Below, piece by piece: positions 37,212-47,362 of a stretch of DNA of 64,000 bases. The notes under the pieces were generated by a model. The model had not been told where the DNA came from, did no database searches, and saw only the letters and a program-made list of their open reading frames with translations. The DNA comes from an uncultured Oscillospiraceae bacterium (GTDB taxonomy: Bacteria; Bacillota; Clostridia; Oscillospirales; Oscillospiraceae), in assembly GCA_944386985.1 (NCBI GenBank), contig CALXDD010000001.1:124001-188000 (forward strand), in the 5' to 3' direction. The first letter of the stretch is position 1; each line of letters starts with the position of its first letter. The translations under genes and the position numbers were made by a program.

Positions 37212-37253
37212 CACAAAGAAAAGTCCCCCGGCGCAGAAAGTGCGCCGGGGGAC
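37212..37253 (-). terminator. terminator of the SCP2-transketolase operon
   Basis: GTCCCCCGGCGCA (37223-37235) pairs with TGCGCCGGGGGAC (37241-37253), loop GAAAG. On the minus strand it is followed by TTTTCTTTG. Confidence 0.88.
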
Positions 37254-37265
37254 AAGGGCTTGTGC

Positions 37266-38639
37266 TTATTTCAGGAACATGCGGACCATCCGTTCCCTCT
37301 TTTTGGTGTAGGGACGGTAGCGCATGGGGAGGTCCAGCAGGGTGGACTTCTTCACGATGCTTTTCTCATGGATGAAGGTGTTGAAGCTCCGCTTGCCGTG
37401 GTAGCTGCCCATGCCGCTCTGGCCCACGCCGCCAAAGCCCATGTGGGAGGTGGCTAAGTGGATGATGGTGTCGTTGACGCAGCCGCCGCCGAAGGACAGC
37501 CCGCCCAACACCTTCCGCTCCACCGCGCCGCTGGAGGTGAAAAGATAGAGGGCCAGGGGCTTGGGCCGCCGAGCGATGGCGGCCATGGCCTCCTCCAGGT
37601 CCGTGTAGGTCAGCACCGGCAGGATGGGGCCGAAGATCTCCTCCTGCATCACCGGAGCGTCCCAGCTTACCTCGTCCAGCACCGTGGGAGGAATGAAGCG
37701 GCGCTGGGGGTCCGCCATGCCGCCCAGGGCCACGGTCTGCCCCTCTAAAAGGCCCATCACCCGCTGGAAGTGCTTGTCGTTAACGATCACCGGCATGTCG
37801 CTGTAGTCACCGCCTGGGAAGAAGGAGGCCACCGCCTTGCGGTACTCGGTGAGGAAGGCATCCTTCACACTGCGATGGATCAGAACGTAATCCGGGGCCA
37901 CGCAGGTCTGACCAGCGTTGAGGCACTTGCCGAAGGCTACCCGCCTGGCGGCCAGGGGAATGTTGGCGGTCTCGTCGATGAGGACGGGGCTCTTGCCCCC
38001 AAGTTCCAGGCTCACAGGGGTCAGGTGTTTGGCGGCCTTCTCCATGACCATCCGTCCCACCGACACGCTGCCGGTGAAGAAGATATAGTCAAACTGTTCC
38101 TCTAAAAGGGCGCTGTTCTCCGCCCGGCCCCCCTCGATCACCGTTACATATTCCGGGGGAAACACGGCGGCGATAAGCTCGGCCAAGACGCGGCTGGTTT
38201 TAGGGGCGTAGGCGGAGGGCTTCACCACGGCGCAGTTGCCCGCGGCCACGGCCCCCGCCAGAGGCTCCAGCGTCAGCTGGACGGGGTAGTTCCAGGGGGA
38301 CATGATGAGAGCCACCCCGTAGGGCTCCTTCAAAATGAAGCTGCTGGCAGGGAACTGGGCCATGGGGGTGGGCACCCGGGTGGGCTTTGCCCAGGCGGCG
38401 GTGTGCTTGCGGAGATAGGCGATCTCGCTGAGGACCATACCGGTCTCCGTCATATAGCTCTCCATGGGGGGCTTGTTGAGGTCCGCTTTGAGGGCGGCGT
38501 TGATGTCGTCCTCCCGCTGGCGGATGGCCTCCTCCAGCCGCCGGAGCATCTCCAGACGATGGGGCACAGACTTGGTGGCGCCGGTAGCAAAGTAGTCCCT
38601 CTGGCGCTGGATGATGGCTTGAATGTCTGAGGCGTTCAT
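37266..38639 (-). CDS. aldehyde dehydrogenase, class 3 type
   Basis: 457-residue NAD(P)-dependent ALDH of the short class 3/AlkH type, whose known members often act on fatty or aromatic aldehydes. The oxyanion motif S-P-W-N-Y-P-V, general base in L-E-L-G-G-K and catalytic Cys in N-A-G-Q-T-C-V-A-P are all present. The C-terminus ends basic (K-K-R-E-R-M-V-R-M-F-L-K), as in membrane-associating family members. It is the last gene of a seven-gene operon, 6 nt after SCP2-like protein B, and would oxidise an aldehyde generated or carried by that system. Confidence 0.93.
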   Translation of the reverse strand: MNASDIQAIIQRQRDYFATGATKSVPHRLEMLRRLEEAIRQREDDINAALKADLNKPPMESYMTETGMVLSEIAYLRKHTAAWAKPTRVPTPMAQFPASSFILKEPYGVALIMSPWNYPVQLTLEPLAGAVAAGNCAVVKPSAYAPKTSRVLAELIAAVFPPEYVTVIEGGRAENSALLEEQFDYIFFTGSVSVGRMVMEKAAKHLTPVSLELGGKSPVLIDETANIPLAARRVAFGKCLNAGQTCVAPDYVLIHRSVKDAFLTEYRKAVASFFPGGDYSDMPVIVNDKHFQRVMGLLEGQTVALGGMADPQRRFIPPTVLDEVSWDAPVMQEEIFGPILPVLTYTDLEEAMAAIARRPKPLALYLFTSSGAVERKVLGGLSFGGGCVNDTIIHLATSHMGFGGVGQSGMGSYHGKRSFNTFIHEKSIVKKSTLLDLPMRYRPYTKKRERMVRMFLK

Positions 38640-38645
38640 GTGGTC

Positions 38646-39485
38646 TTATTCCGTCTCCTTCCAATCAAGGTAGAGGCCCTTGGCATAGTCTCCCACAGTA
38701 AAGAGGTAATCGCCGATGATGGCGGCAAACTCGGGAGCGCCCTCCACGGTGAGGTACTGCTGGGCGATATAGTCGATCATATCCCCCTTGCCCATAAGGA
38801 TGTCCAGGGCGTGCTGGGGACTGTCGAAGCGGAGAGTCAAAAAGGGCTTGCACCGGGGATACTCCCCCCGGCCCGCCTTGGAGTTGCCCTCCTTCACCCT
38901 CAGATAGCTGTTGAGGGCCGGGTAACCGGTGACGGCGAAGGCGTAGGCCCGGTCGGGGGATTGGAGGGCCCACTGGTGGATCTTTTCGTGGCCCGCCTTG
39001 TTCAGCTGGCTGATGCCTGCGGGCAGCAGGTAGAAGTACAGCTTCACCAGCAGCACCTGGTCCTGGAGACGCTTGGGGGCGTCCTGGGCCTGGAGAAGGC
39101 CAGCCATCACCAGCAGAGACCGGAGCAGGGCCGCGAAGATCAGGGGGTGGCTGGCCGCGCCCCGGATCTGGGGCAGGGGCTTGCCCCGGCCGGAGAAGAA
39201 GAGGATGAAATCCTTCAGATTGTAGAACTCCAGCTCAATGTCGGGGGCAAGGTGGACCTCATTCACCTTCACGGTGAACTTGCCGTCCTCCACCACAAAG
39301 TGGGTGGCCATTTTGCCGCCCTTGGCCCGGACATACAGGGCAGAGACCTGAAAGACAAAGGACTTGCCCTTGAAGAGCTTGCTGAGATCCGGCCGGCTCT
39401 CCACCACCACCCGCAGCAGGGGCAGGGCGGCGTTGAAGAAGATCCGGGCGGCGTAGAGGTCGTTTTTCGTGATCTTCTTTCCCAT
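38646..39485 (-). CDS. SCP2-like lipid-binding protein B (two tandem SCP2-like halves)
   Basis: 279 residues, no signal peptide. Two segments look like sterol-carrier-protein-2 folds: about 33-125 (G-K-F-T-V-K-V, an acidic pair, then a hydrophobic P-L-P-Q-I-R-G segment and long hydrophobic helix) and about 175-265 (A-Y-A-F-A-V-T-G-Y-P-A-L, L-R-F-D-S-P-Q-H-A-L-D-I-L-M-G-K, a V-E-G-A-P-E-F motif). SCP2 domains bind sterols, fatty acyl chains or other hydrophobic ligands. The same two-half layout is seen in protein A of this operon. The assignment is pattern-based and needs a profile search. It lies between the transketolase and ALDH genes. Confidence 0.5.
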   Translation of the reverse strand: MGKKITKNDLYAARIFFNAALPLLRVVVESRPDLSKLFKGKSFVFQVSALYVRAKGGKMATHFVVEDGKFTVKVNEVHLAPDIELEFYNLKDFILFFSGRGKPLPQIRGAASHPLIFAALLRSLLVMAGLLQAQDAPKRLQDQVLLVKLYFYLLPAGISQLNKAGHEKIHQWALQSPDRAYAFAVTGYPALNSYLRVKEGNSKAGRGEYPRCKPFLTLRFDSPQHALDILMGKGDMIDYIAQQYLTVEGAPEFAAIIGDYLFTVGDYAKGLYLDWKETE

Positions 39486-39489
39486 AGCC

Positions 39490-40560
39490 TTACACCTCGT
39501 CTGTCCAGTCGATCTCCGCCTCGAAGTTCCGGTCGTCAAACTTCAACGCCCGGGTGGCCCGGCCGTCGGCGTCGATCTCCACCACATGGGCCCGCTTGAT
39601 CATGTCGAGGGATGCCTCAATGATGTGCTCGGTGTCGATGCCGTTGATGCTCATCAGGTCCTCGTGGAAGCCGATGGCGCTGAAGTGGTCATTGAGACCC
39701 AGCTTCTTGAAGGCGCAGGCGTGGCCGCTGTCCAAAATCACCTCGCCCACGGCGGTTCCGAGACCGCCTAAGACCGTGTGGTCCTCCACGGTGATGATCC
39801 GCCGGGTCTCCTCCACCGCCTGGAGGATGATGTCCCGGTCGATGGGCTTGATGGTGTGGAGGTTGATGACCCGGGCGTGGACGCCGTAGTCGTGCTCCAG
39901 GGCCCGGGCGGCCTGGATGGCCTGGAAGACGCAGGAGCCGTTGGCGATGATGGTCACATCGTCCCCCTCCGTCATCAAAACGCCCTTGCCCAGCTGGAAG
40001 CCGTAGTCTTCGCCGGTGTACACCGTCTGGTCAAAGCCCCGGTTGATGCGGATATACACCGGGCCGTCGGTCTCGTAGGCCGCCCGGATGGCGTTGGCGG
40101 TCTCATAGCCGTCGGCGGGGACGATGACCTTCAGATTCACCAGGGAGCGGACCATGGCGATGTCCTCAATGGCGTGGTGGGTGCTGCCCGCCTGTCCGAA
40201 GGAGGTGCCGCCGTGGGTGCCGATGATCTTCACGTTCACATTCTGGTAGCAGATGTCCGTGTGGAGCTGGTCCGTGGCACGCATGCTGGCGAAGACGGAG
40301 AAGGTGCTGGCAAAGGGGATGAGCCCCGCCTTGGCCATGCCCGCCGCCACGCCGAAGAGGTTCTGCTCGGCGATGCCCACGTTGAAAAACCGCTCCGGGA
40401 ATCGCTTCATGAAATCGCCGATCTTGGTGGATTTGGCCAGGTCTGCGGTGAGGGCCACCACCCGGGGGTCCTTCTCGCCCAGCTCCACCAGGGTTTTGCC
40501 GAAAATTTCAGCGGTGGCCATTTTGGTGCTTTCCACCGCGGTATAGTTCATTCCGCCCAT
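39490..40560 (-). CDS. transketolase, C-terminal (pyrimidine/C) subunit
   Basis: 356 residues, the second half of a split ThDP-dependent transketolase. The cofactor-activating Glu lies in V-G-I-A-E-Q-N near residue 64, with the following T-H-G-G-T-S-F-G-Q-A-G-S-T-H-H segment. The C-terminal domain is complete. ATG 40560 is chosen with AGGAGG 6 nt upstream, 1 nt after the stop of the N-terminal subunit. Split transketolases are common in Firmicutes, but here the pair sits in an aminotransferase/SCP2/ALDH operon and not with pentose phosphate genes. Confidence 0.92.
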   Translation of the reverse strand: MGGMNYTAVESTKMATAEIFGKTLVELGEKDPRVVALTADLAKSTKIGDFMKRFPERFFNVGIAEQNLFGVAAGMAKAGLIPFASTFSVFASMRATDQLHTDICYQNVNVKIIGTHGGTSFGQAGSTHHAIEDIAMVRSLVNLKVIVPADGYETANAIRAAYETDGPVYIRINRGFDQTVYTGEDYGFQLGKGVLMTEGDDVTIIANGSCVFQAIQAARALEHDYGVHARVINLHTIKPIDRDIILQAVEETRRIITVEDHTVLGGLGTAVGEVILDSGHACAFKKLGLNDHFSAIGFHEDLMSINGIDTEHIIEASLDMIKRAHVVEIDADGRATRALKFDDRNFEAEIDWTDEV

Positions 40561-40561
40561 C

Positions 40562-41428
40562 TCAGCCCTCCTGTTCCGCGCGGGCAATGCGCTTTGCCTC
40601 GTAATCCTTCAGATCCTGGGTGGCCTTTGCGTATTTCTCCGAGTCCATGGCGCCGTAGTGCCACTTGTAGTCCCCGGCCATGAAGGAGATGCCCTCCCCC
40701 TTGATGGTGTCCAGGATGATGCATACCGGCTTCTCCTTGGCGGCCATGGCCTTTTCCATGGCATCGGAGAGCTTTTGCATGTGGTGGCCGTCCACCTCGA
40801 TGACCTCAAAGCCGAAGGCCCGCCACTTGTCCGCAAAGGGCTCCAGGGCCAGCACGTCCTCAGTGGGGCCGTCGATCATGGCGCGGTTCCGGTCCACTAC
40901 GGTGATGAGGTCCGTGGCCTTGTAGTGGGCGGTGGCCATGGCCGCCTCCCAGACGCTGCCCTCGTCGCACTCACCGTCGCCCAGGAGCACCCAGGTCTTG
41001 TGGGGGTTGTTCAGCACCCGGGCGGCCAGGGCGTCGCCGAGAGCCAGGGAGCTGCCGTGGCCCAGGGAGCCGGTGGAGGCCTCCAGGCCCTTCACCTTGT
41101 TGCTGTCCAAGTGCATCCCCAGCTTGCTGCCGGTGAGGTTGAAGGTTTTGAGATCCTCCTTGTCCACCAGTCCCAGCTGGGCAAAGAGGGCGGCCAGGAT
41201 CACGCCGATGTGGCCCTTGCTGACGATGCAGCGGTCCCGCTTGGGGTCTGTGTAGTTCTTGGGGTCAAAGTTCAGGTACTTGTGGTAGAGCAGCGTAAGA
41301 AAATCCGCGCTGCTCAGGGAGCCGCCCATATGGGCGCTGCCGGCCCAGTTGCAGGTGTCCAGGGTCAGCTGGCGAAGTTCCGACGCCTTGTGTTCCAGTT
41401 CGATCCATTCCGCTTTGGACAGTGCCAT
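40562..41428 (-). CDS. transketolase, N-terminal (ThDP-pyrophosphate) subunit
   Basis: 288 residues with the ThDP motif starting G-D-G-E-C-D-E-G and closing at D-R-N-R. The substrate-side loop reads S-A-H-M-G-G-S-L-S where ordinary transketolases have S-G-H-P-G-G-S. The Asn of D-x-N is kept, but the usual Gln after it is not at the expected place (V-D-R-N-R-A-M-I-D-G). These changes near the active site hint at a substrate other than the usual sugar phosphates. It is translated just before the C-terminal subunit. Confidence 0.92.
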   Translation of the reverse strand: MALSKAEWIELEHKASELRQLTLDTCNWAGSAHMGGSLSSADFLTLLYHKYLNFDPKNYTDPKRDRCIVSKGHIGVILAALFAQLGLVDKEDLKTFNLTGSKLGMHLDSNKVKGLEASTGSLGHGSSLALGDALAARVLNNPHKTWVLLGDGECDEGSVWEAAMATAHYKATDLITVVDRNRAMIDGPTEDVLALEPFADKWRAFGFEVIEVDGHHMQKLSDAMEKAMAAKEKPVCIILDTIKGEGISFMAGDYKWHYGAMDSEKYAKATQDLKDYEAKRIARAEQEG

Positions 41429-41458
41429 GGCAACATTCCTCCTAACTTTGTTCCTGAT

Positions 41459-42718
41459 TTACTGATAGAGCTCGGGGTGACGGGCCTTCAGGGCCTTGAA
41501 GGCCTCATCGGCCACCTGGCCGGTGAAGTCGATGTCCGCGTCGGTGAGGGAGAGGTTGGTGAAGTGATTGTGGTGGTTGGTGACGTACACCCCCCGCTTC
41601 ACCATCTCAGCGATCCACTCCTGGTGGAGCATGAGGCTGTTGTCGTCAGTGATGCGGAGGTAGAAGAGGGAGGGCTCGCCGGAGATGGAGAGGCCCACGC
41701 CGTTCTCCCGGGCGGCCTTGGCCAGCACGTCGCAGACCTTCCTGCCAAGGGCCAGGTGGGCCTGACCGCCGCCCAGGGCCTTCATCTTGTTGATGCAGGC
41801 GATGGCCGCCGCGAAGGGCACCGCGCTCATCCAGTAGCTCCCTGTGTAGGTGATGGAGGAGACGGTGGGCTTTAAGAAGTCCTTGCCGCAGAGGGCGGAG
41901 ACGTTGAAGCCGTTGGCAATGCCCTTGCACAGGCACAGAAGGTCCGCCTCGAAGCCGTAGTAGTGGTCGCTGCCCGCCAGATCCAGCCGCCAGCCGCAGC
42001 GGACGTCGTCAATAATGAGGATAATGCCGTTTTCCGTGCACAGCCGCCGCACCTCCTGCCAGTAGCCGGGGGCGGGGAGGACGTTGTCCACGAAGTTGCC
42101 GTGCATGTAGGGGGTGGAGATGAAGCAGGCGATGTCGTCCTTGTTCTCCTCAATGATCTTCTTGAGCCCCTCGATGTCGTTGAAATCCACCATCAGGTTG
42201 TGCTCCACCTCGCTGGGCAGCACCCAGGGGGCGTCGGCACGCTGGGTCCACTGGGCCACGCCGTGGTAGTAGCCCTTCACAAAGATGATCTTCCGCTTGC
42301 CGGTGGCGGCCCGGGCGGTAAGCACCGCCAGGGTGGTGGTGTCGCCGCCGTTTTTGGCGAAGAAGGTCCAGTCGGCGCACTGCACCGTCTCGTGCATCAG
42401 CTCTGCCAGCTCCACCATCTTGTAGGAGGGGGCGGTGATGCAGTCGCCGATGGCCATCTGCTCCATGGCGGCGGCGTTCACGTCCTCGTCGCAGTAGCCT
42501 AAGATGTTGGGGCCGTAGGCGCACATATAGTCTAAGAACTTGTTGCCGTCCACGTCGTAAAAGTAGCTGCCCTTGGCCTTGGCGGCGAACTTGGGGAAGG
42601 CGCTGATGGGGATGAAGCAGCCCTCGGCGGGACCCTGGTGGCCGTAGACCCCGCAGGGGATCACCTGGGCCGCCCGCTGGAGCAGCGCGTCGTTTTTGGG
42701 ATAGGTGTAGGTGTTCAT
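41459..42718 (-). CDS. class III aminotransferase (glutamate-1-semialdehyde aminomutase-like)
   Basis: PLP enzyme of 419 residues in the GSA-aminomutase/class III family. The PLP-ring Asp lies in I-I-D-D-V-R-C-G-W-R (family usually D-E-V), and the Schiff-base Lys is in L-C-L-C-K-G-I-A-N-G near residue 260. It would transfer an amino group to or from an aldehyde or ketone. No haem biosynthesis neighbours are present, so a hemL role is unlikely. ATG 42718 has AAGGAGG upstream. It lies between SCP2-like protein A (13 nt gap) and the transketolase pair (30 nt gap). Confidence 0.9.
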   Translation of the reverse strand: MNTYTYPKNDALLQRAAQVIPCGVYGHQGPAEGCFIPISAFPKFAAKAKGSYFYDVDGNKFLDYMCAYGPNILGYCDEDVNAAAMEQMAIGDCITAPSYKMVELAELMHETVQCADWTFFAKNGGDTTTLAVLTARAATGKRKIIFVKGYYHGVAQWTQRADAPWVLPSEVEHNLMVDFNDIEGLKKIIEENKDDIACFISTPYMHGNFVDNVLPAPGYWQEVRRLCTENGIILIIDDVRCGWRLDLAGSDHYYGFEADLLCLCKGIANGFNVSALCGKDFLKPTVSSITYTGSYWMSAVPFAAAIACINKMKALGGGQAHLALGRKVCDVLAKAARENGVGLSISGEPSLFYLRITDDNSLMLHQEWIAEMVKRGVYVTNHHNHFTNLSLTDADIDFTGQVADEAFKALKARHPELYQ

Positions 42719-42731
42719 GCTTTGCCCTCCT

Positions 42732-43487
42732 TTACGCCAGATAGACCGCCACACGGCCCAGAATTCGGTTGAGATTGTCAATCATGGGGATATAGCCGCC
42801 CATGCGGATCTTCCCGGCCGCCAGGGCGCTCATGGACTCCAGGGTGCCGTCGAAGAGGCCACGGGCGGTGTCAAAGCTGTCGAAAATCATGTAGGACCGG
42901 GGGCGCTCCGCCTTCCGGCTGCGGGTAACGAGACGGCTGTCCCGGGCGGTGATCTCCACGGCAGGGCCGCCTAAAATCTCCATGGCAATGGTGCCGTCGG
43001 GGATGGCCGCGGCGGCGATGCGGCCCAAGGGGTCGTTGTTGGCGATGGCTGCCAGGGCGAAGGCCACGGTGTGGAAGAGGATGGTGGTGCTGCGCTCAAA
43101 GAAGGCCCGATCCTCCAGATCCTCCTGGGAGGGACGGAGATAGACCTCCAAAAGGTCGGTGAGCTGGGTGAACTCCCGGAGGAGGAAGTTGACCTTGGTC
43201 AGGCCGCTGTAGGGCAGGGGGTTCCTGTCCCCGTCCACCATGGCGTTGAAGGCCTGGGGGGAGGGCAGCAGCAGCTTCACCTTGCCGGTGTTGCCCCGAG
43301 TCATGCGGCAGCTGCCTTCGTCGAAGTGGAGGGTGGCCATGGGCCCCCCCTGGACATGGAAGCCGATGGACATGGGCTTTTTGGGAGAGGCCAGGGCTTT
43401 GGCGGTCTCGTCCAGCGCGCAGAGGGGCTCCAGGGATTTCAGAACTGCCCACATATTCACATGGGCCATCACGACGGGATCTTTCAT
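42732..43487 (-). CDS. SCP2-like lipid-binding protein A (two tandem SCP2-like halves)
   Basis: 251 residues, cytosolic. The N-terminal half (about 35-120) has H-F-D-E-G-S-C-R-M, L-L-L-P-S-P-Q-A-F-N and N-P-L-P-Y-S-G-L, followed by a hydrophobic helix. The C-terminal half (about 160-248) has G-G-P-A-V-E-I, an F-D-S-F-D-T-A-R-G-L-F-D-G-T segment and A-G-K-I-R-M-G-G. Both halves resemble SCP2 domains and match protein B in layout (for example the P-L-P segment and F-D-S...G motif), suggesting duplicated carriers. No catalytic motif is visible. It starts 4 nt after the merR stop. Confidence 0.5.
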   Translation of the reverse strand: MKDPVVMAHVNMWAVLKSLEPLCALDETAKALASPKKPMSIGFHVQGGPMATLHFDEGSCRMTRGNTGKVKLLLPSPQAFNAMVDGDRNPLPYSGLTKVNFLLREFTQLTDLLEVYLRPSQEDLEDRAFFERSTTILFHTVAFALAAIANNDPLGRIAAAAIPDGTIAMEILGGPAVEITARDSRLVTRSRKAERPRSYMIFDSFDTARGLFDGTLESMSALAAGKIRMGGYIPMIDNLNRILGRVAVYLA

Positions 43488-43491
43488 ACGG

Positions 43492-44556
43492 TCACTCCTT
43501 TTCTGTTTGGCTTTGGATCTGTATCAGGAGCCGGGCGGCAGCCCGGTCCGGTTCGGGAAGGGAGGGGGAGAAGTGCAGCTCTCGGGGCGTCAGCACTCCG
43601 AGACCCTGCTGCAGAAGGCGGCACAGCCGCCGGTGGGGGGTGCCGTCCTCTATCTGGGGACGGAAGGCGGAGAGCGTTGTGTTCAAAGTGGAGAGCGCCC
43701 GGGCAATGCCCTGCTCCCGCAGGCGGAGAAGACAGCCGAAGGCGTCGGGCAGGGGCGCTCCGGTCTCCCGGCCCGCCAATACCTCCTCCAGAAGGGCCCG
43801 GTCCGCGTCCTCCAGCAGAGGGGAGAGGCGGCGGGCGTAGGTGTGGAGGCGGCAAAGGAACCGCTCCACCGTCTCCAAAAAGGCGTTGCCCGCCTGGGCG
43901 TTGAGGGCGTAGCGGCGCATGGCGATAAAGCTGTCCAGGGTCTGGTCGGAGACGTTGATGATTTCCACCGCCTGGGCAGTGGTGAGGCCCGGGGAGAGCA
44001 TGCAGTCGCTGAGAAGGCTCTCGATATCCCGGGGCGCGGTCTGCCGGAGGTGAGTCTCGTAGAGGGAGAAGGTCTTCACCGTCTGGGCAGCGGGAATCCC
44101 CGCGTCCAGGCGGCGGCGCACCAGTTCCATGAGCCGGAGCTCCCCCCTGCAGCAGAGGGTTTCCTCCCCCCGGCGCTGGGGGGTGAGGAGACCGGCCGTC
44201 TCCAGAAGGCGTGCGGTATCCTCATCCAGCCCGGCGGCGGTTATGGCCTGGGAGAGAGGGAGGAGGTCGTAGTAGTCGTCCTGGTCGGCCTTGCTGATGG
44301 CGTGGAGCAGCTCCGCCTCCCCCGGGTCCTCCTGCTGCAGCAGCCTCCGGATCACGGAGAGAGGGTAGAACCGCTCCCCCTGGAGCCGACGGATCAGGCG
44401 CACCTGTTCCACCGCTTCCGGGGCGTAGTAGGCCATGTTGGGACTGGTTTTTTTCACCGGACGGATCAGGCCCTCGCGGACGTAGTATTTCACGGTGGTG
44501 AGGTTCGTATCCGATGCCTCCGCCACCTCGCTGATTTTCAAAAGCTGCTGTTCCAT
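43492..44556 (-). CDS. MerR-family transcriptional regulator with long C-terminal domain
   Basis: 354 residues. The N-terminal MerR winged helix (K-I-S-E-V-A-E-A, then T-V-K-Y-Y-V-R-E-G-L) is followed by about 270 residues of mostly helical sequence, far longer than metal-sensing MerR proteins and suggestive of a large effector-binding domain. ATG 44556 has GGAGGG about 6 nt upstream. It is the first gene of the operon, so it is probably autoregulated and may sense the pathway's substrate. The effector is unknown. Confidence 0.85.
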   Translation of the reverse strand: MEQQLLKISEVAEASDTNLTTVKYYVREGLIRPVKKTSPNMAYYAPEAVEQVRLIRRLQGERFYPLSVIRRLLQQEDPGEAELLHAISKADQDDYYDLLPLSQAITAAGLDEDTARLLETAGLLTPQRRGEETLCCRGELRLMELVRRRLDAGIPAAQTVKTFSLYETHLRQTAPRDIESLLSDCMLSPGLTTAQAVEIINVSDQTLDSFIAMRRYALNAQAGNAFLETVERFLCRLHTYARRLSPLLEDADRALLEEVLAGRETGAPLPDAFGCLLRLREQGIARALSTLNTTLSAFRPQIEDGTPHRRLCRLLQQGLGVLTPRELHFSPSLPEPDRAAARLLIQIQSQTEKE

Positions 44557-44747: not shown

Positions 44748-44790
44748 GAAAAAACGCAGGAGCAGCAGTCCCTCTCAGGACTGCTGCTCC
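44748..44790 (-). terminator. terminator overlapping the end of the GTPase-NYN gene
   Basis: GGAGCAGCAGTCC (44759-44771) pairs with GGACTGCTGCTCC (44778-44790). The stop codon at 44775-44777 is in the loop, so the last codons form one arm. On the minus strand it is followed by TGCGTTTTTT. Confidence 0.8.
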
Positions 44791-47330
44791 CGCAAAAACG
44801 CCTGGATCTGGGCGTTCACCTGGTCCAGCTCCCACCGGAGATCCCCGGCAGACACCCGCTGGGCCCCGTGGCCCAGAATCATGATCTGCTCCAACCCGTC
44901 GGAGGTGGCCACCTTCACCCGGTACTTCCGGGCCAGCTCGTAGGACACCCGCTCAATATACATGTCCGCTGTCTCACCCTCCTTGGTGTATACCACCTCC
45001 ACACCGCCGCGGCGGTCCTCGGTTCCGATGCCGCCGGGCACCTTATAGGCGTCGAACACCACGGTCACATGGCAGTCCTTCACCCCTTTGTAGTTGCTGA
45101 GGGCGTTGAGGAGGGCCGTCCGGGCGTCGTCTAAGCTCTCCTTCGCCAGGCGGTTCAAATCCTCCCAGGCGAAGATGATGTTATAGCCGTCCACCAGCAG
45201 CCAGTCCCCCTTCTGGACGTAAGCGGGCTGCTCCCGGTTGGGAAGGGACGGTCCCGGGGTCCTCCGGCTCTGGCGCAGGGCGTCCATCCCCCGGTTCTTG
45301 ATGGGACCGTAGGTGCGGACAAAGATCTCCTCCAGCTCCTTGTCCCCCGCCGCGCTGCCCGCGCCGCCGGAGACAAACCGCCGGGGCCGCTCCTCCTCCG
45401 CTGGATGGAGCCGGTAGCCGCTGTCCACATGGGCCCGCTTCGGCACCTGATCCCAGGGGACCACCACCCCCGCCCCGTGCTCGCAGAACACCGAGTCCGC
45501 CGTGTTCTCCACATCCCGGTCGCAGTCATAGCCAGAGGCGTCGATGACCGCCTGGGGATCGGCGCAGGGGCGGTAGCCGTCAAAGGCGCAGCTCAGCTGC
45601 CCCTGGCCCCGGGTGTAGGCAGCCACCTCGCTCCAGTAGCCCCCTGCAGCCGCCGCCGGGACCTGACCGGTGAGGGCCGCCAGCTCCCCGGCTCCTTCCT
45701 CCTCGGTGAAGGTTCCGCCCATCCTCTGAACGTCCGCCATGGCCCGCCCCAGATTTTCCCGGGGTACCTCCAGCCGGAAGGCATACCAGGGCTCCAGCAG
45801 GATGCTCTCCGCCTGACGGAGGCCCTGGCGCACCGCACGGTAGGTGGCCTGGCGGAAGTCGCCGCCCTCGGTGTGCTTGAGGTGGCCGCGGCCCGCTAAA
45901 AGGGTGATCTTCAGATCCGTCACCGGGGAGCCGGTGAGGACCCCCACCGGCACCTTCTCCGCCAGATGGGTCAAAATCAGCCGCTGCCAGTTGATGTCCA
46001 GGTCGTCTGCCCCTACGGCGGAGGCGAAGCGCAGGCCGCTGCCCCGCTCCCCCGGTTCCAAGAGGAGGTGGACCTCCGCATAGTGGCGCAGGGGCTCAAA
46101 GTGACCGATGCCCACCACCGGGGCGGCGATGGTCTCCTTGTAGAGGATGCTCCCCTGGTCGAAGTCCACCGTCACGCCGAAGCGGTCGGCAATGCGGCGG
46201 CGGAGCACCTCCTGCTGCACCTCCCCCATGAGGCGGACGTGGATCTCCCCCAGGGCCTCGTTCCAGACGATGCGCAGCTGGGGGTCCTCCTCCTCCAGCT
46301 GCCGCAGCTTTCCAAGAAAGGTGTGGCAGTCGCAGCCCTCCGGCAGAAGGAGCCGGTAGGTAAGCACCGGCTCCAGAGCGGGGGATTCTCCCGCCGCCTC
46401 CGCCCCCAGGCCCTGGCCGGGGAAGGTGTGGGTGAGGCCGGTGACGGCGCAGACTGTCCCAGCCTCCGCCGTCTCAATCTGGCGGAACCTGGCCCCGGAG
46501 TAGAGGCGGATCTGGTTCACCTTCTCCTGCCAGTCCTCCCCGCTGACGGTGTCCTTTACCTTGAGGGCTCCGCCGGTGACCTTCAGGAAGGTCAGCCGCT
46601 CTCCGCCCTCCCGGGCGATCTTGAACACCCGGGCGGCAAAGGTCTCCCCGTAATGGGGGACGGGGCCGTACCGCTGGAGGAGATCCAGCAGCTCCTCCAC
46701 TCCCTCCAGACGCAAGGCGGAGCCAAAGCAGCAGGGAAACAGCTTCCGCTGCCCCACGCAGGCGGCCACCGCCTCATCGTCCAGGGGTTCCCCCGACAAA
46801 TACTGCTCCAAAAGCCCCTCGTCGGCCATGGCCACACTCTCCGCCCAGGCCGCATCCCGGGCGGTGAAGTCCACACAGTTTTCGTGGAGGCGGCGGCGCA
46901 GCTGCCCCAGAACGGCCTCCCGGTCCGCCCCCGCAAGGTCCATTTTGTTCACAAAGAGGAAGGTGGGTACCCCGTAGCGCTCCAGCAGCCGCCAGAGGGT
47001 GGCGGTGTGGCCCTGAACGCCGTCGGTGCCGCTGATAACCAGCACGGCGCAGTCCAGCACCTGGAGAGTCCGCTCCATCTCCGCGGAAAAGTCCACATGG
47101 CCGGGGGTGTCCAGAAGGGTCACCTCCAGCTGGTCCCAGGCAAACTCCGCCTGCTTGGAGAGGATGGTGATGCCCCGCTCCCGCTCCAGCTCGTCGGTGT
47201 CCAGAAAGGCGTCCCGGTGGTCCACCCGCCCCAGCTTCCGCACCGCCCCGGCGGTGTACAGCAGCGCCTCGGACAGGGTGGTCTTCCCCGCATCCACATG
47301 GGCCAAAATCCCCACCACCAGCTTTTTCAT
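44775..47330 (-). CDS. TetM/EF-G-like ribosomal GTPase fused to a YacP/Rae1-like NYN nuclease domain
   Basis: 851 residues. The first ~640 form an EF-G/TetM-type translational GTPase: G1 A-H-V-D-A-G-K-T-T, G2 region R-G-I-T-I, G3 D-T-P-G-H-V, G4 N-K-M-D, then domains II-V. After a linker (K-E-L-E-E-I-F...G-P-I-K-N-R) residues ~711-851 form an NYN/PIN-like domain with acidic positions L-V-D-G-Y-N, V-F-D-A-Y and E-T-A-D-M-Y, as in YacP. B. subtilis Rae1/YacP cleaves mRNA in the ribosomal A site, and TetM-type GTPases enter the same site, so the fusion suggests a GTPase-delivered ribosomal nuclease. Tetracycline resistance is not demonstrated. It has its own promoter. Confidence 0.88.
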   Translation of the reverse strand: MKKLVVGILAHVDAGKTTLSEALLYTAGAVRKLGRVDHRDAFLDTDELERERGITILSKQAEFAWDQLEVTLLDTPGHVDFSAEMERTLQVLDCAVLVISGTDGVQGHTATLWRLLERYGVPTFLFVNKMDLAGADREAVLGQLRRRLHENCVDFTARDAAWAESVAMADEGLLEQYLSGEPLDDEAVAACVGQRKLFPCCFGSALRLEGVEELLDLLQRYGPVPHYGETFAARVFKIAREGGERLTFLKVTGGALKVKDTVSGEDWQEKVNQIRLYSGARFRQIETAEAGTVCAVTGLTHTFPGQGLGAEAAGESPALEPVLTYRLLLPEGCDCHTFLGKLRQLEEEDPQLRIVWNEALGEIHVRLMGEVQQEVLRRRIADRFGVTVDFDQGSILYKETIAAPVVGIGHFEPLRHYAEVHLLLEPGERGSGLRFASAVGADDLDINWQRLILTHLAEKVPVGVLTGSPVTDLKITLLAGRGHLKHTEGGDFRQATYRAVRQGLRQAESILLEPWYAFRLEVPRENLGRAMADVQRMGGTFTEEEGAGELAALTGQVPAAAAGGYWSEVAAYTRGQGQLSCAFDGYRPCADPQAVIDASGYDCDRDVENTADSVFCEHGAGVVVPWDQVPKRAHVDSGYRLHPAEEERPRRFVSGGAGSAAGDKELEEIFVRTYGPIKNRGMDALRQSRRTPGPSLPNREQPAYVQKGDWLLVDGYNIIFAWEDLNRLAKESLDDARTALLNALSNYKGVKDCHVTVVFDAYKVPGGIGTEDRRGGVEVVYTKEGETADMYIERVSYELARKYRVKVATSDGLEQIMILGHGAQRVSAGDLRWELDQVNAQIQAFLREQQS

Positions 47331-47362
47331 CGTCTGTCTCCTTCGTTTTGTCATTTGGAGTC

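Follow-up and report, generated by a model that had tools for sequence, protein, structure and literature searches.

Introduction

The gut is rich in sphingolipids of host, dietary and microbial origin. In their free form, sphingoid bases, which are 2-amino-1,3-diols, harm bacteria. In the sphingosine-1-phosphate (S1P) lyase route, the base has to be phosphorylated, and the long-chain aldehyde in which the route ends is oxidised by a class 3 aldehyde dehydrogenase (ALDH). An operon from an uncultured Oscillospiraceae bacterium is compared here with this route and with other described systems. It encodes a MerR-type regulator, a class III aminotransferase (AT), a split transketolase (TK) with N and C subunits (TK-N and TK-C), a class 3 ALDH and two proteins of predicted SCP2-like fold, termed carriers A and B. 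The operon lies in a stretch of 64,000 nucleotides (nt), positions 124,001-188,000 of contig CALXDD010000001.1 in assembly GCA_944386985.1, which is referred to as the window.

Several described systems share parts of this gene set. FumI ("aminopentol aminotransferase") deaminates aminopentol, or hydrolysed fumonisin, an analogue of the sphingoid bases; because this compound lacks a hydroxyl at C1, its deaminated product could not enter a TK step. A putative transporter is part of the operon of the steroid-17,20-desmolase DesAB. Compared by organisation only, DesAB resembles the present pair in being a split TK that acts on a lipophilic ketol; its operon partner is 20-HSDH, and neither an AT nor an SCP2-like protein is mentioned in the accessible part of the source (PMC12876203), a restriction that applies to every PMC-numbered source cited below. 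The SphR regulon of Pseudomonas aeruginosa (sphA, sphBCD, cerN) is predicted to carry out sphingosine catabolism, through an oxidoreductase and a pyridoxal 5′-phosphate (PLP)-dependent, threonine-aldolase-like enzyme (PMC3900636, PMC5150637). It differs in relying on a cytochrome and a flavin oxidoreductase, and the accessible portions of those sources name no AT, TK or SCP2-like protein. The S1P lyase route requires a sphingosine kinase and the lyase, neither of which is encoded in the present operon; PF00282 has one partial match in the genome, at a contig end, whose score together with its neighbours is 27.3 bits, against a cut-off of 27.

The operon is real and conserved, and no earlier description of it was found in the open-licence literature; as far as the accessible parts of their sources go, none of the systems compared joins an AT, a TK and SCP2-like carriers. 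That literature, most subscription journals being outside its scope, also yielded no AT-TK route for sphingoid bases and no pathway for their removal by anaerobic Clostridia. We propose, with a probability of roughly 0.45, that the operon serves to break down sphingoid bases, the long-chain 2-amino-1,3-diols, with no need for oxygen, a kinase or an S1P lyase.

A predicted pathway for sphingoid bases

Removal of the amino group from a sphingoid base gives CH2OH-CO-CHOH-R, a ketose-like TK donor that is cleaved between C2 and C3. In the proposed pathway, carrier A would present the base to the AT, which would transfer the amino group at C2 to a keto acid (with FumI, pyruvate) and leave a 1,3-dihydroxy-2-ketone. 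Carrier B would then present this ketone to the split TK, which would cut the C2-C3 bond, pass the glycolaldehyde unit bound to thiamine diphosphate (ThDP) on to an aldose phosphate and release a long-chain aldehyde, which the class 3 ALDH would oxidise to a fatty acid. The role of the carriers would be to hold the insoluble substrate and ketone. We infer the substrate, direction and acceptors of this pathway, together with lipid binding by the carriers.

The AT, which is left unexplained by a desmolase model, fits a sphingoid base because deamination yields a donor ketone of the TK type, and a single substrate class could therefore account for AT, TK, ALDH and carriers together. An earlier note on this DNA had proposed two-carbon or amino-group chemistry on a carrier-bound substrate; this much is retained, and the scheme is modified in that each carrier is paired with its own enzyme and the core consists of five genes. 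The three outcomes that the note had named as fatal to its proposal are the reverse of what was seen: the carrier models have SCP2 folds, the TK pair differs from ordinary ones in active-site residues and is not the genome's only TK, and the neighbourhood is conserved.

More broadly, and somewhat more apt to be wrong than right, these genes may represent a widespread anaerobic pathway of gut Clostridia that treats a sphingoid base as a ketose, transamination converting it into a TK donor. The head carbons would then enter the pentose-phosphate pool, the tail would leave as aldehyde and fatty acid, and the carriers would be two dedicated SCP2-like shuttles for lipid within an enzyme complex; in reverse, the same pathway would be a route to sphingoid bases free of serine palmitoyltransferase (SPT). 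If the proposal is true, the operon connects sphingolipids of host and diet with the sugar metabolism of bacteria, offers a genetic marker by which gut bacteria that consume sphingolipids could be recognised (in one family, 46 of 200 genomes have carrier B) and contains a natural TK changed at a site that engineers have altered for non-sugar aldehydes.

Conservation and modular make-up

When named genomes were scanned with the AT profile, 550 relatives were obtained, and the best 80 of these are the named loci considered here; their titles are mostly those of Oscillospiraceae or Clostridia of animal guts, and two are Treponema. Carrier A directly adjoins the AT in 79 of the 80 loci, TK-N lies downstream of the AT in 67, the order TK-N-TK-C is found in 64 and TK-C-carrier B in 61. 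Among the 61 loci in which at least 4.5 kb of sequence follow the AT, TK-N, TK-C and carrier B are all present in 52. The conserved unit is thus five genes long (carrier A, AT, TK-N, TK-C and carrier B), and merR, with a relative in six of the 80 loci, and the ALDH gene are local additions. The conserved neighbourhood expected in the earlier note therefore exists for this core, though not for all seven genes.

Two surveys of 200 genomes each were made. In the window's own family, Oscillospiraceae (its own genome counted in), carrier A occurs in 15 genomes and carrier B in 5. In the hindgut/rumen family of G203, the metagenome-assembled genome that bears locus L050, carrier B occurs in 46.

The core can come apart. 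At 11 family loci (L023-L033), carrier A and the AT are found without a TK in the fetched stretch, and at L043 the TK and carrier B stand with a zinc-type alcohol dehydrogenase and an ALDH (L043:6866-12278), with no carrier A-AT pair beside them and no carrier A match anywhere in that genome. Because these modules occur separately, each carrier appears to travel with its own enzyme, A with the AT and B with the TK. L044 was rejected as another TK-carrier B module lacking carrier A: its contig ends inside TK-N, and a carrier A fragment lies at another contig end of that genome. Outside the five core genes, a given neighbour family is found at 9 of 84 loci at most (82 plus L021 and L022, which duplicate L049 and L094) on simple codon-bias gene calls; ten of the neighbouring proteins were compared with Pfam, and a ceramidase or lipase confined to a single locus could escape notice.

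Other genes accompany the core at individual loci. An alpha/beta hydrolase gene lies upstream at L121, in the co-directional run. Three minimal-type loci (L066:2965-9198, L109:3168-9014 and L114:3202-9195) encode proteins of 1948-2077 residues immediately 5′ of the carrier A-AT pair, and two of these very long proteins, when put to Pfam, gave no match. A gene for a protein of ~430 residues lies ~50 nt after carrier B at L085:14052-15350, as do its relatives in L087, L090 and L097. In HGW-Firmicutes-16, an old-yellow-enzyme-type reductase (692 residues) and an MFS transporter follow carrier B (L049:14140-17525).

The transketolase pair

TK residues are numbered after human TK. The operon set comprises 65 TK-C subunits, that of the window included, and 67 TK-N subunits, and the background is formed by the 29 best-scoring ordinary split TKs (29 loci) from 61 genomes of the phylum rather than by a random draw. 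As judged from its sequence, the operon TK keeps the ThDP machinery and catalytic residues: GDGE, Asn185, His37, His77 and His110 are retained in all 67 TK-N subunits and Glu366 and His416 in all 65 TK-C subunits, and these we take to be the ThDP motif and catalytic residues. Ser345 is replaced by Thr in two TK-C subunits, and Arg474 is present in 64, with one gap. In TK-N, Pro38 has given way to Ile, Leu, Met or Val (67/67), and the departure from the S-G-H-P-G-G motif that had been noticed in the window is borne out, the sequence there reading S-A-H-M-G-G.

Changes are concentrated at Asp424 and Arg318, which in human TK presumably recognise the sugar hydroxyl and phosphate. At the Asp424 site, all 65 operon TK-C subunits have Ala and all 29 background enzymes have Asp; Arg318, likewise kept by all 29, is replaced by Ala, Thr or Ser in 62 of the 65 operon subunits, and the window's TK-C has Ala at both sites. 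An alteration of the TK at these two sites is well supported by the alignments. Arg318 is kept in three operon-type TKs (L043, L044 and L094), which are the loci with a zinc-type alcohol dehydrogenase. On these counts, assignment of the operon TK to the sugar-phosphate type was rejected. So was its assignment as an ordinary pentose-phosphate TK, residues kept throughout the background being lost and the genome having three other split pairs and one further pyrimidine-domain protein; the pair is thus, as had been supposed, neither ordinary nor the genome's sole TK. Among these other pairs, L036 retains every residue inspected, and L035 has Tyr at His416; given changes at His416, L035 and L037, the third pair, may likewise have special substrates. 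On a tree of TK-C, the operon copies require two changes (starred branches allow one). Because this is a quick tree with long branches, the distinction is drawn from residues and not from the tree.

Asp424 of human TK presumably corresponds to Asp469 of the Escherichia coli enzyme. The D469T variant of E. coli TK is active on aromatic aldehydes, reached by a substrate walk via non-polar aliphatic ones and away from phosphorylated ones (PMC5073344). The closest solved TK for both subunits is the split TK of Carboxydothermus hydrogenoformans (6yaj, 6yak), which takes bulky hydrophobic aldehydes (PMC7661550) and differs from the operon TK in keeping both Arg318 and Asp424.

The aminotransferase

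The AT is a FumI-like class III aminotransferase. FumI (PDB 6hbs) is its nearest solved relative by far, with an E-value of 1.6e-78 against 2.9e-44 for the next, the best glutamate-1-semialdehyde aminomutase (GSAM). When a profile of 14 AT sequences is compared with PDB sequences, FumI scores 372 bits (E 2.8e-110) and the next entry 213.6 bits (E 3.4e-62). The two enzymes share the class III fold and the stretches YGH, MCAYGPN-LGY, DDVR-G-R and TGS-W-SAVP, and Lys265, which we take to be the PLP lysine, is invariant in 14 of 14 AT sequences. NCBIfam ranks GSAM models first, all below cut-off, and shows no FumI match.

The difference from FumI lies in an identity of 36%. FumI relatives on proteobacterial plasmids (4 of 24 matching records) are 58-63% identical to FumI and 38-40% identical to the AT. 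Identification as FumI proper was rejected, 36% lying under the range of ~60% identity or more of enzymes active on HFB1 (PMC9858248). With pyruvate, an enzyme of the FumI type yields 2-keto-HFB1, called non-toxic, and an acetamide (PMC9858248). On the AT tree, which took in one of the genome's four other class III enzymes (by motif recovery), FumI sits on a long branch and its placement is unsafe, so kinship with FumI is argued from scores.

The carriers and the aldehyde dehydrogenase

Neither carrier has a match in Pfam up to E 0.1 or in NCBIfam up to E 0.01, and the two would be protein families outside both collections. A structure search matches the predicted models of both to SCP2 alpha/beta folds; for the carrier B model (pLDDT 92.9), the best Foldseek match is an archaeal SCP2 (E 1.8e-4). 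On the basis of these models, the SCP2 fold of both carriers is well supported. The carriers are homologous to one another (hhalign E 4.8e-11). Carrier A contains a tandem repeat detectable in sequence as well as fold; the halves of carrier B show no repeat at the sequence level (hhalign E 0.027), and carrier B is called two-lobed because of the secondary structure in its model. The description of the carriers as duplicated SCP2-like proteins, made in the earlier note, thus stands for the fold of both and for the tandem in A, and no curated SCP2 profile matches either. The SCP2-like domains of UbiJ and SdsA1 are alike in fold, but the matched parts of those proteins are single SCP2 domains, whereas the present carriers are two-lobed, free-standing and paired with enzymes. 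Since SCP2-fold proteins studied so far mostly hold hydrophobic ligands, the carriers may bind lipid intermediates. Carrier A has no match on plasmids.

The nearest solved relatives of the ALDH are class 3 enzymes, ALDH3A1 and the human fatty aldehyde dehydrogenase 4qgk (E 2.4e-112), which are among 12 matches at E up to 1e-60; the class 3 type had been recognised before. The ALDH gene closes the operon in the window and in its closest relatives.

Association with sphingolipid genes

SPT-like genes, whose closest solved relative is the SPT 3a2b (E 7.7e-116), lie near operon genes at two loci: in L030, 1.6 kb upstream of the carrier A-AT pair and separated from it by a short-chain dehydrogenase/reductase (SDR) gene, and in L043, at a distance of 1.8 kb from TK-N. 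Across the 200 Oscillospiraceae genomes, an SPT-like gene accompanies carrier A in 8 of 15 genomes, against 62 of the other 185, which is not significant (p 0.16). None of the 50 full-operon genomes has an SPT-like gene at E 1e-100, and two have a more distant relative (39-40%). As a separate observation, an SPT-like gene lies beside an SDR gene of one cluster in 11 of 20 loci (L155-L174, L030), the two mostly overlapping or abutting; it is possible that they form a sphingoid-base synthesis pair in Oscillospiraceae. Flavonifractor plautii is claimed to produce phytosphingosine, no enzyme being named (PMC11914097).

Among the 200 hindgut/rumen genomes, Ceramidase_alk (PF04734) is found in 26 of 46 that contain carrier B and in 13 of the 154 others (odds ratio 14.1, p 3e-11, kinship ignored). 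The odds ratio is 15.9 if the two weakest carrier B rows (G330 and G414) are left out. A control family, GH39, gives 25/46 against 39/154 (odds ratio 3.5, p 5e-4), and the odds ratio for Ceramidase_alk is 12.0 in GH39-positive and 14.8 in GH39-negative genomes. Of 50 genomes, 49 from operon-bearing relatives and the window's own, 36 have a Ceramidase_alk match, which in 31 is above cut-off. The co-occurrence is at most suggestive of a sphingolipid substrate. In rumen and hindgut Clostridia, divergent PF04734 relatives often number several per genome, and those in L213 and L214 keep an HTH motif. The lipid used by the window's organism would come from outside, because its genome has no close SPT-like gene and no Ceramidase_alk match.

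Counter-evidence and alternative explanations

Several observations weigh against the breakdown of sphingoid bases. Asp424 is also lost outside the operon, in L037, which has Ser at that site and Gly at His416. The C. hydrogenoformans TK accepts phenylacetaldehyde and cyclohexanecarboxaldehyde in vitro (PMC7661550), and because it retains Asp424 and Arg318, their loss is not needed for hydrophobic acceptors under such circumstances. ABC-transporter genes stand beside three of the four plasmid-borne FumI relatives, and no carrier or TK match was found within 8 kb of the four, so kinship with FumI is no proof of a lipid substrate. An ALDH relative occurs in only 5 of the 80 named loci, in one of which (L063) it lies ~8 kb off, and in L085, L087, L090 and L097 the position after carrier B is occupied not by an ALDH but by an acetyltransferase-like gene (a weak match to alcohol-acetyltransferase PF07247, below cut-off, in the one tested). 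SPT-like genes are present in 70 of 200 Oscillospiraceae genomes and beside the cluster in only two. Lifestyle or phylogeny contributes to the ceramidase link, since GH39 is associated with carrier B as well. Ceramidase_alk has no match in the window's genome or in its closest relatives (L045-L047), and the two co-occurring matches that could be read, out of three loci fetched, are partial and divergent and lack a serine motif, presumably that of neutral ceramidases.

Direction is one matter on which explanations divide. AT and TK reactions are both reversible, and it could be that a long-chain aldehyde is extended by two carbons through the TK and the resulting ketone aminated by the AT, giving a sphingoid base without SPT. 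The lack of close SPT-like genes in the 50 full-operon genomes, set against their presence in 70 of 200 Oscillospiraceae, would agree with synthesis, as would the scarcity of the ALDH (5/80 loci) and the acetyltransferase-like gene after carrier B in four loci. However, the sample that has the SPT-like gene and the one that lacks it come from different clades, and for this reason SPT absence does not decide the direction. A class 3 ALDH, an oxidiser of aldehydes, ends the operon in the window and its closest relatives, which argues for breakdown in that lineage, and synthesis is also at odds with the want of any constant lipid-building step (no other neighbour family exceeds 9 of 84 loci) and with the patchy distribution of the operon (5/200 and 46/200 genomes); on balance it seems unlikely. 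Of much the same low probability is detoxification, in which carrier A and the AT would deaminate antibacterial cationic amphiphiles such as sphingoid bases or fumonisin-like amines, and TK, carrier B and ALDH would be additions for salvage. The non-toxic product ascribed to a FumI-type enzyme (PMC9858248) and the toxicity of sphingosine for bacteria (PMC5150637) are consistent with such a role. So is the carrier A-AT pair for which no TK was found in 11 family loci and 13 of the 80 named loci, although less than 2 kb follow the AT in L025, L081, L119 and L122. Nevertheless, 52 of the 61 loci that extend far enough have TK and carrier B, and the label of full or minimal locus, assigned by tblastn, needs four changes on the AT tree; TK has thus been gained or lost repeatedly, and the carrier A-AT pair is not necessarily the older state.

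Other substrates would alter the picture further. A different lipophilic ketol, for instance a steroid side chain, would suit a split TK such as DesAB, which acts on a steroid (PMC12876203), with the AT serving a neighbouring amine or ketone, and the reductase and MFS genes after the core in one genome (L049) might belong to such a pathway. Steroids bring no amino group, yet the AT is the most constant partner, and non-core families each occur at 9 of 84 loci at most, a weak point as most neighbours are not annotated; we regard this explanation as quite improbable. Least probable, by a little, is a pathway for soluble amino sugars or amino alcohols, with the SCP2-like proteins serving as scaffolds and binding no lipid. 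ABC transporters beside three of the four proteobacterial AT relatives inspected would be in keeping with soluble substrates, as would the retention by the TK of Ser345 (or Thr), His416 and Arg474, which we take to belong to the sugar-phosphate site. Such a pathway is difficult to reconcile with the loss of Asp424 and Arg318, the predicted SCP2 folds of the carriers and the class 3 ALDH.

Organisation of the operon and adjacent genes

As the earlier note had stated, seven co-directional genes with short gaps and a single, strong terminator make up the operon, which occupies the minus strand at 37266-44556 (Table 1). From merR to the ALDH gene, the gaps measure 4, 13, 30, 1, 4 and 6 nt.

Table 1. 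Features of the operon, in order of transcription (positions in the window; aa, amino acids)
Feature	Position	Strand	Support
MerR-type regulator, 354 aa	43492..44556	-	Pfam MerR_1, E 1.2e-18, residues 7-75
Carrier A, 251 aa, two SCP2-like repeats	42732..43487	-	
Class III aminotransferase (AT), 419 aa, FumI-like	41459..42718	-	PF00202, E 2.4e-34
Transketolase N subunit (TK-N), ThDP domain	40562..41428	-	PF00456, E 8.5e-41
Transketolase C subunit (TK-C), pyrimidine and C-terminal domains	39490..40560	-	PF02779, E 1.9e-44; PF02780
Carrier B, 279 aa, two-lobed, SCP2-like	38646..39485	-	Fold of predicted model
Class 3 aldehyde dehydrogenase (ALDH), 457 aa	37266..38639	-	PF00171, E 2e-87
Intrinsic terminator of the operon	37223..37253	-	13-pair stem, 11 G-C, T-rich tail

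A promoter scan of the region returned one sigma-70-like site, on the opposite strand, which is no more than shuffled sequences give. The MerR-type regulator has a long C-terminal part that extends beyond the reach of MerR models. Upstream of merR, the minus strand encodes an 859-residue protein (44775-47354), which we take to resemble an EF-G/ribosomal-protection GTPase fused to a YacP-type (NYN) domain.

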